Shown here: positions 13,475 through 16,961 of the stretch, piece by piece
Position numbering within the stretch: position 1 is the first letter of the stretch
Layout: each line of letters begins with the position of its first letter
From: an uncultured Hippea sp.
GTDB lineage: Bacteria; Campylobacterota_A; Desulfurellia; JAADFJ01
Reading direction: 5' to 3'
Length of the DNA: 35,978 nt
Assembly (NCBI GenBank): GCA_913009315.1
Contig: CAJVZA010000013.1
Location: forward strand, 1 to 35,978
Translations under genes and position numbers: made by a program
Notes under the pieces: generated by a model
The model's input: the letters and a program-made list of their open reading frames with translations, nothing else
What the model was told of the DNA's origin: nothing
Database searches by the model: none

Positions 13475-14539
13475 ATGAATTTTAGCGATAACAAAGCCAC
13501 TTTTTCTGAAAACAATAAAATTTTCATCATAGCTTCTGTCGTTATGCTTGCGGTGATGTCGATATATACTTTGAAGTCACTGCATGGAACATTGTGGATA
13601 AAACAACTTGCCTGGTTTATGCTGGGAGCTTTTTCGATTGTTATAGCGATCAAAATGACACATAATTTTTTTTATCATTATGCATACTTGTTCTATTTGT
13701 TGGGACTGGCGCTGCTTTTTCTTGTGAGTGTTTTTGGGACAAAGCATTTTGGTGCCATAAGATGGATTCATATAGGAATTATAAATCTGCAGCCTTCGGA
13801 AATTGCAAAACCTTTGATTATTCTGGCAGTGAGTCGTTATCTGTCTGATCATCAGGAAAACAGACCGCTCAGATTAGTTCACTTCCTGTTCGCCGCTGCA
13901 ATTGTAGCACTTCCTGCATTTTTGGTGATAATGGAGCCGGATCTGGGGACAGCCATCATAATGCTTTCCATACTTCTTTTAGTAATCTTTGTGGCCGGAA
14001 TAGATAAAAGAATATTTTTTGCTATGATTATACTGACGTTTTCTGCAATTCCCATAATATGGAAATTTCTAAAAGGCTATCAGAAAGCACGAATTATTGA
14101 GTTTATCAATCCGGGAAGTGACCCGCTTGGATCAAGCTTTCAGTCCGTGCATTCACAAATTATTATAGGATCGGGGCAGCTGTTCGGACACCCGTTAGGT
14201 TCCGTATTTCCATGGTCGAATTTTTTGCCTCAAAGCAGTTCGGATTTTTTCTTTGCACTATTTGCTTATCAGTATGGTTTTGTGGGAATCTTAGTTTTAA
14301 TTGCAATATTTTGGCTTTTGATATCACGCTTTATAAAGCGTGCTCAAAATGCGGAGGATAATTTTTCCCGCTATTTTATAATTGGTTTTACAATAATCTT
14401 TAGTATATCATTATTTTTTAATATAGGAATGACTTTAGGGCTTGTTCCTGTAGTGGGGATTACGCTTCCGCTTGCAAGTTACGGAGGTTCGTCTATAATA
14501 GCAAATATGATATCAATTGGTATTATTCTATCTAAATGA
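13475..14539 (+). CDS. rodA: RodA, SEDS-family peptidoglycan glycosyltransferase
   Basis: Polymerises lipid II into glycan strands for cell elongation with PBP2. It is 354 aa with about ten membrane segments. SEDS signatures are visible: GAIRWIHIGIINLQPSEIAK, MEPDLGTAIIML (catalytic-region Asp), and the C-terminal ..GMTLGLVPVVGITLPLASYGGSS.. region. RodA rather than FtsW is preferred because it directly follows mrdA in an mre operon. It begins one base after the mrdA stop and overlaps yjbQ by 4 bases. Confidence 0.94.
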   Translation: MNFSDNKATFSENNKIFIIASVVMLAVMSIYTLKSLHGTLWIKQLAWFMLGAFSIVIAIKMTHNFFYHYAYLFYLLGLALLFLVSVFGTKHFGAIRWIHIGIINLQPSEIAKPLIILAVSRYLSDHQENRPLRLVHFLFAAAIVALPAFLVIMEPDLGTAIIMLSILLLVIFVAGIDKRIFFAMIILTFSAIPIIWKFLKGYQKARIIEFINPGSDPLGSSFQSVHSQIIIGSGQLFGHPLGSVFPWSNFLPQSSSDFFFALFAYQYGFVGILVLIAIFWLLISRFIKRAQNAEDNFSRYFIIGFTIIFSISLFFNIGMTLGLVPVVGITLPLASYGGSSIIANMISIGIILSK

Positions 14540-14934
14540 ACATGATTGAAATAGAAACAAAGAGTAAAAACGAGTTTATAGACATTACTTCTTTGCTTAA
14601 AAGTGAGGTTGCCTTAAAAAATTTGAATTCTGCCGTACTTTTAGTCTATATTCCGCACACTACTGCCTGCGTTACCATAAACGAAAGCTACGACCCTGAT
14701 GTTGCCTATGATATTCTTTCCTCTATGCAAAAATTGATACCTGAGAATTTTCACTACAAACATCGGGAGGGCAATAGTCCTTCACATATAAAATCCGGTC
14801 TTTTTGGAAATCAGCTGTTAATACCTGTTTCAGATGGACAACTAATGCTTGGAAAATGGCAGGGTGTGTTCTTCTGCGAATATGATGGTCCGAGAAACAG
14901 AAAAATATATACGGAGTTTATTAAAACCGTATGA
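14536..14934 (+). CDS. yjbQ: YjbQ/UPF0047 family protein
   Basis: Small cytosolic beta-fold protein of 132 aa, close to the usual 135-140. Conserved motifs include IPHTTACVTINESYDPDV, HREGNSPSHIKSGLFG and LGKWQGVFFCEYDGPR; the His and Glu residues in these form the conserved site. YjbQ proteins have been linked to a weak thiamine-phosphate synthase activity; the physiological role is uncertain. Coupled by ATGA to rodA, and its own stop overlaps an ATG (14931) that may be the original start of the next gene. Confidence 0.88.
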   Translation: MNMIEIETKSKNEFIDITSLLKSEVALKNLNSAVLLVYIPHTTACVTINESYDPDVAYDILSSMQKLIPENFHYKHREGNSPSHIKSGLFGNQLLIPVSDGQLMLGKWQGVFFCEYDGPRNRKIYTEFIKTV

Positions 14935-15021
14935 GCAGTTCAAAACCTCCCGATTCTATACTTACCGAAAAAATCGGCAGTTTCGGAGTTATATATTAGT
15001 ATCTATATTGCTGTTCTTTTA

Positions 15022-16242
15022 TTGTGTCTTTTTTTCTCGGCATTTTTTTCTGCAAGTGAAACTGCTCTAACATCAATTTCAGAACTGAAAGCCCGCCACA
15101 TCATAAAAAAGAATAAGAAGGGGAACAGTTCTTTGAAATTATGGATAGATCATCCCAAAAAAATGCTTACTGCTATTTTAATAGGCAATAATATAGCAAA
15201 TGTTTTTGCATCGGTTTATGCAACGGTTATCGCGCAAAAAATAATAGGAAACAGTGTTGTCGCGATAGCAGGCGGAATAATGACTCTTCTGATACTTATT
15301 TTTGGTGAAATTACGCCAAAAACATTTGCAAAACAGCATGCCAATATTATTGCACCTATAGCCGCAAGACTTCTCAAACCGTTTTACTATATTTTTTATC
15401 CAATTACTATGGTTTTGCGTTACATTGCCAAAAATATGACATTTGAATCGCAAATAGGGAACAAGACCGGTTTGTTGACTGAAGATGAACTTGAATTTAT
15501 GGTTGAAATGGGAAAAAATGAAGGTGTGTTAAATGCCGACAAACATAAGATGATAAAGAATATATTTGATATGGGAGATACAATTGCAAGAGAGATTATG
15601 ACTCCAAGACCCGATATAAAGGCGGCAGATGCCAGTATGAGCGTAGAAGAAGTTATTAAGCTTTTCGCAAAATACGGCCATTCAAGAATGCCTGTTTACG
15701 AGGATAGCAGAGACAATATATTAGGTATCATAAATCTCAGGGATTTGATTGCACAGTACCCTGATATAAAAAACGATAATGTAAAAAAGCATATGAAGGA
15801 TGCTGTTTTTGTGCCTGAAACGAAATCGATCTTCAAGCTGCTCAAAGAGATGCAGAATAAGAAGATTCATCTTGTTATCGTACTTGATGAATATGGTGGA
15901 ACCTCAGGAATAACAACAGTTGAAGATATTATTGAAGAAATTGTGGGAGAAATAGAGGATGAAGACGACAGCGTAAAGATTGATGTGCGAAAGGTTAAAG
16001 ACGGATCATACATAATAAACAGCAGGATGAGTTTTGATGATTTTGTAGAAAAATTCAACCTGGAGGAATTTGAGGATATAGAAAGAACCGATTTTGATAC
16101 GGTTGGAGGATTTATAATGTATCTTGATGACTCCATACCTAAAATAGGAGCTGTTATAAAATACAAAAATCTTCGTTTTACAGTTTTAGATGCTGATGCT
16201 AACAGACTTTTGAAGGTGAAGCTGGAGATTGTCAAAGAATGA
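15022..16242 (+). CDS. CNNM/HlyC-CorC family transporter-like protein with CBS domains
   Basis: Membrane protein of 406 aa in the UPF0053/CNNM group, linked to Mg2+/Co2+ efflux. An N-terminal DUF21 membrane domain (about 1-150, SAFFSASETALTSISELKARH) is followed by paired CBS domains (REIMTPRPDIKAAD and VVLDEYGGTSGITTVEDIIEEIVGEI). The C-terminal CorC_HlyC domain ends DADANRLLKVKLE. The start is problematic: TTG 15022 lacks a ribosome-binding site and cuts the first membrane helix. The expected ATG at 14931 is one frame off and meets TAG at about 14997. The gene may be frameshifted or use an unusual start (see findings). Overlaps the next gene by 4 bases. Confidence 0.85.
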   Translation: MCLFFSAFFSASETALTSISELKARHIIKKNKKGNSSLKLWIDHPKKMLTAILIGNNIANVFASVYATVIAQKIIGNSVVAIAGGIMTLLILIFGEITPKTFAKQHANIIAPIAARLLKPFYYIFYPITMVLRYIAKNMTFESQIGNKTGLLTEDELEFMVEMGKNEGVLNADKHKMIKNIFDMGDTIAREIMTPRPDIKAADASMSVEEVIKLFAKYGHSRMPVYEDSRDNILGIINLRDLIAQYPDIKNDNVKKHMKDAVFVPETKSIFKLLKEMQNKKIHLVIVLDEYGGTSGITTVEDIIEEIVGEIEDEDDSVKIDVRKVKDGSYIINSRMSFDDFVEKFNLEEFEDIERTDFDTVGGFIMYLDDSIPKIGAVIKYKNLRFTVLDADANRLLKVKLEIVKE

Positions 16243-16961
16243 TTATCGCAGGCGATATACATGGCCAGGTGCGACTCATAGAAAAGGTACTAAAGAGTTT
16301 TGAAAATAACAAAATTCTTTTTGCAGGCGATATCATAGACAGAGGAGACGCAAAAAGCTGTCTGAAACTGTTGTCGGAATCGGGCGCAAAATCTTTAATC
16401 GGAAACCATGAGCAGATGGCAATTGCATTTTGCAACGCTCCGGAGGCAGATCTAAAAAGCTTTTATAATATCTGGATGGCTAATGGCGGCTTATCTACTC
16501 TAAAAAGCTTCGGCATAAAGAACAAGGATTTAAAGAGTGTGCAAATATTGATACGAACTAATGCAATATTCGATATTATAAGACGTTTTGATATATATAA
16601 AATTATTGATGATACGATAATTCTTCATGCCGGAATTGACAGAAATTATCTTTTAGATCCGCATGAATCGTTTGTCTGGTCAAGAACTCCGATAGATAAA
16701 GTTGGCAGCAGTGTGGTATTATCCTTCAAAAACGATTTCCCTGCTATAAAATTTATGATAACCGGCCATAATATTGTTAAAACTCCCGCAATATATACGA
16801 ACTGCTCCATATTGCAGTTAAGGATCGATCTGGGTTCTTTCTACAGCAAAACAGTTGGTGCATTTGACACTGAGAGCAAGAATATTTATAAGATCAGCGA
16901 GAATGATGTGGTGTTAGTTGGCAATATAAATAGTATGACAAACAGCAGAAGTTATTTTTAG
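16239..16961 (+). CDS. PPP-family metallophosphatase (ApaH/PrpE-like)
   Basis: Cytosolic phosphoesterase of 240 aa with the full PPP signature: GDIHGQ (near residue 5), GDIIDRGD (near 30), GNHEQM (near 57), a HAGID motif and TGHNIV near the C-terminus. Bacterial members act on diadenosine tetraphosphate or on Ser/Thr/Tyr phosphoproteins, and the sequence does not settle which. The ATG overlaps the upstream CBS-protein stop as ATGA, so it is probably translationally coupled to it. Confidence 0.85.
   Translation: MIIAGDIHGQVRLIEKVLKSFENNKILFAGDIIDRGDAKSCLKLLSESGAKSLIGNHEQMAIAFCNAPEADLKSFYNIWMANGGLSTLKSFGIKNKDLKSVQILIRTNAIFDIIRRFDIYKIIDDTIILHAGIDRNYLLDPHESFVWSRTPIDKVGSSVVLSFKNDFPAIKFMITGHNIVKTPAIYTNCSILQLRIDLGSFYSKTVGAFDTESKNIYKISENDVVLVGNINSMTNSRSYF

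Follow-up and report, generated by a model that had tools for sequence, protein, structure and literature searches.

This operon raises the question of where translation of corC begins, the only ATG, GTG or TTG in its reading frame upstream of the conserved core being a TTG codon (15022..15024, plus strand) within the sequence for the first membrane helix. The window, i.e. the whole stretch of DNA that was analysed, is a 35,978-base contig of G000, a 1.74 Mb draft genome of 96 contigs (88% complete), and carries on its plus strand an operon in the order rodA/ftsW-like, yjbQ, corC and phosphoesterase. The first gene (13475..14539), which we take from its sequence to be FtsW/RodA-like, overlaps yjbQ as ATGA; yjbQ (UPF0047; 14536..14934, with TGA at 14932-14934) was identified by Pfam PF01894 (E 5.4e-38); and the gene following corC (16239..16961), presumably carrying calcineurin-like phosphoesterase motifs, overlaps the corC stop, again as ATGA.

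Reading frames between yjbQ and corC

The original prediction regarded corC as frameshifted at its beginning, and the part of it that concerns the reading frames themselves stands. An ATG at 14931 does overlap the yjbQ stop as ATGA, as letters and coordinates confirm, and opens a frame of 22 codons, MSSSKPPDSILTEKIGSFGVIY, which ends with TAG at 14997-14999. This mini-ORF (14931..14999, plus strand), a candidate leader or coupling ORF, is real and is kept in the genus. The CNNM/CorC frame is displaced by one base (+1) relative to the mini-ORF, in the window as well as in the related genome G002; in the window this frame has no stop as far back as 14935 and runs ...SIYIAVLLLCLFFSAFFSAS. Equally justified was the objection to TTG 15022, the start called by gene finding limited to ATG, GTG and TTG: our scan for Shine-Dalgarno (SD) sequences gave no SD-like match at this codon, which cuts the first transmembrane helix predicted by AlphaFold and is not a start in G002, and it was rejected as the start of corC. 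What found no support is the explanation by a mutation, a sequencing error or programmed +1 frameshifting; the alternative that had been overlooked is an AUU start at 14995.

A candidate AUU start behind a conserved GGAG

The proposed start codon is ATT 14995..14997 (plus strand), whose last base, T14997, is shared with the mini-ORF stop. A candidate SD core for corC, GGAG (14985..14988, plus strand), ends six bases 5' of the ATT, with its central A 7 nt before it, the junction in the window reading GGAG-TTATAT-ATTAG. Re-annotated from this codon, corC would span 14995..16242 (plus strand; 415 codons plus TGA), and TTG 15022 would encode residue 10. We consider it probable, at about 0.8, that corC begins at AUU 14995-14997 behind GGAG 14985-14988. 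In a sample of 157 ORFs with 150 codons or more, drawn from the window and eight 20 kb stretches, 94 have an SD match of 4 nt or longer, and in 51 of these 94 the central A lies at the modal distance of 6-8 nt from the start, a range that includes the 7 nt found in both the window and G002. A 4-nt SD core occurs by chance at approximately 10% of random positions, and ATC 15001, located 6 nt past the ATT, has the same GGAG at 13 nt (central A). Because 4-nt matches are this common, it is conservation that bears the weight of the argument for AUU.

The class search covered 25 genomes, three of them from this genus (G000, G001 and G002), and G002 is the only other genus member that has the junction stretch; a search of genome contigs matched only the G002 contig and one distant locus. 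In G002, whose CorC is 82% identical, the junction reads TTTCGGAG-TTCTCT-ATTAG-CATCTATATT, i.e. GGAG, six nucleotides and ATTAG are kept, with a spacer of TTCTCT vs TTATAT in the window. GGAG-6 nt-ATT with the ATTAG overlap is thus present in 2/2 genomes having the junction. At the four-fold sites of corC, 74/124 positions differ between G000 and G002, and it is this divergence that makes the kept spacing within an altered spacer informative. Directly after the ATT conservation returns, the first 30 codons being 80% identical and second-position differences amounting to 0.03 between the two genomes. In the G002 corC frame no ATG, GTG or TTG is found between the SAFFSASE core and a TAG that lies 57 nt before the match start. 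Once ORFs that were antisense or out of frame had been discarded, 15 orthologous genes could be read in the window and G002, and corC is the only one of them with no canonical start in one genome. The ATGA overlaps at yjbQ/mini-ORF and at corC/next gene occur in both the window and G002, while the rodA/yjbQ junction is ATGA in the window and CTGATGAA in G002. In G001, whose YjbQ is 91% identical, the contig ends 52 nt past yjbQ, after MSSSKPPDPNRRQAALT. In G004, another member of the class, a run of N (masked) adjoins corC (locus L014).

The protein read from the ATT contains the domains CNNM (PF01595), CBS (PF00571, two stretches) and CorC_HlyC (PF03471) according to Pfam. AlphaFold predicts its first transmembrane helix at residues 2-27 (14998..15075, plus strand), including S15 and S19, with pLDDT values of 82 and 91 for the first two ten-residue blocks (80.8 overall; pTM 0.39). 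Of thirty homologue loci, three on the minus strand (L020, L023 and L024) were left out of the comparison. Both serines are invariant in 20/20 alignment rows and align with Ser21 and Ser25 of MtCorB, which coordinate Mg according to the available part of PMC8242095. In the same 20-row alignment the ATT falls in the initiator column, in line with the starts of 18 homologues, these starts being hand-picked from canonical candidates. If translation begins at the ATT, 14 residues precede S15; in the 18 other homologues 15-20 do so, as counted by eye, whereas TTG 15022 leaves 5.

AUU starts are known in few bacterial genes, documented cases being infC, pcnB and cvfC1 of Staphylococcus aureus (as described in PMC5472188 and PMC13009471), and gene finders limited to ATG, GTG and TTG truncate or drop such genes; in the present case they would remove part of the first helix of the transporter. 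As in infC and pcnB of E. coli and in cvfC1, an AUU that relatives share follows an SD and occupies the start position of corC, where such annotation misses it. For cvfC1 an extended SD was reported, whereas corC has only the 4-nt core. It further differs from all three in that it encodes a Mg-transport membrane protein and that its proposed AUU start overlaps the stop of a mini-ORF. The geometry of the junction, its conservation and the fit to homologues, as well as the lack of canonical infC starts in the class (see below), are directly visible in the DNA, and corC is most likely a further case of a known, small kind, the AUU-initiated genes.

Alternative readings of the junction

The +1 slip at TAT-TAG-T proposed originally, i.e. 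programmed +1 frameshifting that would fuse the mini-ORF to corC and thereby add an N-terminal extension of 22 to 26 residues, is compatible with the maintenance of the mini-ORF at both ends, and of the corC frame at +1, in both genomes. It also recalls the RF2 gene prfB, where a short frame with an early stop and the main frame at +1 are combined with an SD-like motif upstream, as is GGAG here, and where the shift takes place beside a stop. UAG, moreover, served as the stop in the largest mutant study of the CUU shift site, as far as the available text of a review (PMC5009743) describes it. However, by the same text CUU_U far exceeded in efficiency the other members of a set of 32 shift-site variants assayed with UAG, and the junction has no such shift-prone codon: by the rules of pairing, tRNA-Tyr shifted by +1 from UAU to AUU mismatches at the first two positions, so that TAT cannot re-pair. 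The lineage does possess a classic +1 site, GGGAGG-TYG-CTT-TGA-C, in prfB of 3/3 genus genomes (L056, L057, L058), and the corC junction is unlike it in shift codon, stop and SD spacing (GGAG-5 nt-TAT-TAG-T/C vs GGGAGG-3 nt-CTT-TGA-C); its spacing suits initiation instead. In addition, such an N-terminal extension is absent from all class homologues that were read, and an alternative slip site, A6 in G000, is A4 in G002 and hence not conserved. We regard frameshifting at this junction as quite improbable.

Much the same holds for the idea that the real start is another nearby non-canonical codon, ATC 15001 or ATT 15007, or after all TTG 15022. Both ATC 15001 and ATT 15007 are conserved, and the former still has GGAG upstream, but the spacing is far off the modal range and every step downstream shortens helix 1; TTG 15022 is, besides, missing from G002 and would leave only those 5 residues ahead of the first Mg-ligand serine. 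A recent disabling mutation or a sequencing or assembly error had been considered as well, and the quality of the data leaves some room for errors: G002 was assembled from a metagenome at a coverage of about 4, G000 is a draft in 96 contigs, and indels do occur, as illustrated by a one-base difference between G000 and G001 just past the ATG of lptF. Against this, the off-frame junction, the stop, the SD and the ATT are identical in two species as diverged at four-fold sites as described above, and both carry an otherwise intact and conserved corC. As the two assemblies agree, despite a 12-nt difference in the length of the mini-ORF, neither error nor mutation is at all likely. Of the frameshift reading as a whole, the dismissal of TTG 15022 and the frame of ATG 14931 remain, while slip, mutation and error are not supported.

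The mini-ORF and initiation in the lineage

If corC begins at AUU 14995-14997, this codon would be read as fMet, guided by the GGAG six bases upstream. Ribosomes would probably arrive mostly by chain translation of the operon, in which the ATGA at the end of yjbQ starts the 22-codon mini-ORF; our SD scan found no SD at ATG 14931, which is thus probably reached through restart. A ribosome terminating at the UAG of the mini-ORF could then restart at the base-sharing AUU, one frame over. AUU is a weak start codon, and, if initiation and coupling take place as we infer, such a start might keep CorC low or make its synthesis IF3-sensitive. Non-canonical starts also cut yield in the S. aureus reporters of the literature on AUU starts cited above.

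The start of the mini-ORF and its KPPD motif are kept in 3/3 genus genomes (in G001 only up to the contig end), and its stop and last codons in the 2/2 genomes that reach them (G000, G002). In G002 the mini-ORF has 26 codons, MNRSKPPDPERYQRVIVKISGFGVLY, with the junction intact. Between G000 and G002 there are 4 differences in the first 24 bases and 4 in the last 27 bases before the stop, with an unalignable middle, the borders of these blocks being chosen by hand and the genomes numbering only three. Conservation of the 3' block is partly explained by the SD inside it; the 5' block holds no SD. As it is conserved at both ends, the mini-ORF may couple or regulate corC translation. The PPD codons CCT CCC GAT (14946..14954, plus strand) are replaced by the synonymous CCT CCT GAC in G002, and PPDP is present in the mini-ORF of two of the three species. 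In E. coli, PPD is an EF-P-dependent pause motif, and in cells without EF-P it occurred solely among the pausing PPX motifs, according to the accessible part of PMC4140641. It is possible, judging from three sequences, though rather unlikely, that the mini-ORF is a cis-acting sensor in which pausing or ribosome abortion at its N-terminal KPPD, a proline/acidic motif, sets the flow of ribosomes to UAG/AUU, resulting in Mg-responsive metering of a CNNM Mg exporter through restart at an IF3-sensitive start codon; at low Mg, ribosomes would then abort within the leader and export would decrease. An Rfam scan of 14300-15400 gave a single match, far under its cut-off, no match was found in phage records and viral contigs, and four folds of the junction revealed no unusually stable RNA structure (no z-score below -0.8).

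Several known systems resemble this arrangement in part. In enterobacteria, the YoaL leader is a small ORF that overlaps the start region of mgpA/yoaE, a Mg-stress gene with a CorC domain, much as the mini-ORF overlaps that of corC, whereas the membrane domain of MgpA is TerC and that of the CorC described here is CNNM. When the start of YoaL was turned into a stop, translation of MgpA fell, and intrinsic ribosome destabilization has been proposed for CorC, YoaL preceding the CorC-domain gene mgpA (both as given in the available text of PMC12421838). The 8-aa ORF mgtQ in the mgtC-mgtB gap of Salmonella is likewise a short intra-operon ORF before a Mg transporter and has a regulatory effect on translation of the latter (PMC8092293, available part); it works through alternative stem-loops, however, in contrast to the corC junction with its lack of an unusually stable fold. 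Termination-reinitiation at gene overlaps is established, and ATGA/TGATG pairs share with the junction the overlap of stop and start and an SD inside the upstream ORF (PMC6728339, available part), but here the start is AUU and the overlap ATTAG. In the titles and abstract openings of the papers retrieved on restart and non-AUG/AUU starts, no bacterial case of such a restart was found. With its AUU overlapping the mini-ORF stop, corC offers a simple case for asking if non-canonical codons are used for restart after termination, and also if leader translation meters CNNM Mg exporters as it does other Mg-transport genes.

Elsewhere in G000, lptF (L064:13515-14654, minus strand) was the only one of the 157 ORFs without ATG, GTG or TTG in its first 50 codons and has a possible ATC start; it was rejected as a second non-canonical start of this genome, G001 having an in-frame ATG and G000 differing by one base. 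This one-base difference in the lptF/lptG-like permease (L064:14605-14622, contig C2, minus strand) is due to a genuine indel or else to an error in assembly. For infC, starts with ATT, ATC or AUA are known from other bacteria (PMC5472188, PMC13009471, in the parts available). In the 25 class genomes infC was found at 22 loci (L073-L094), of which 12 lack ATG, GTG and TTG all the way from the upstream stop to the IF3_N domain. An ATA preceded by AGGAGGTGA or a similar motif recurs at many of them, and in one family this conserved ATA looks like the infC start. A non-canonical infC start is not universal in the class, since infC of G003, G005 and G007 has an ATG that could serve as start. With infC lacking canonical starts at so many class loci, the ribosomes of this lineage very probably already use non-canonical ones. 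Within the genus, infC of G001 has no canonical start upstream of IF3_N, a TTG being present only at the first residue of this domain, while in G000 an ATG lies six codons ahead of it. Candidate starts of infC in the genus are an ATA behind GGGAGG or an ATT further on; in G000 and G001 the candidate GGGAGG-TAGAGC-ATA falls within the 3'-terminal part of the preceding gene.
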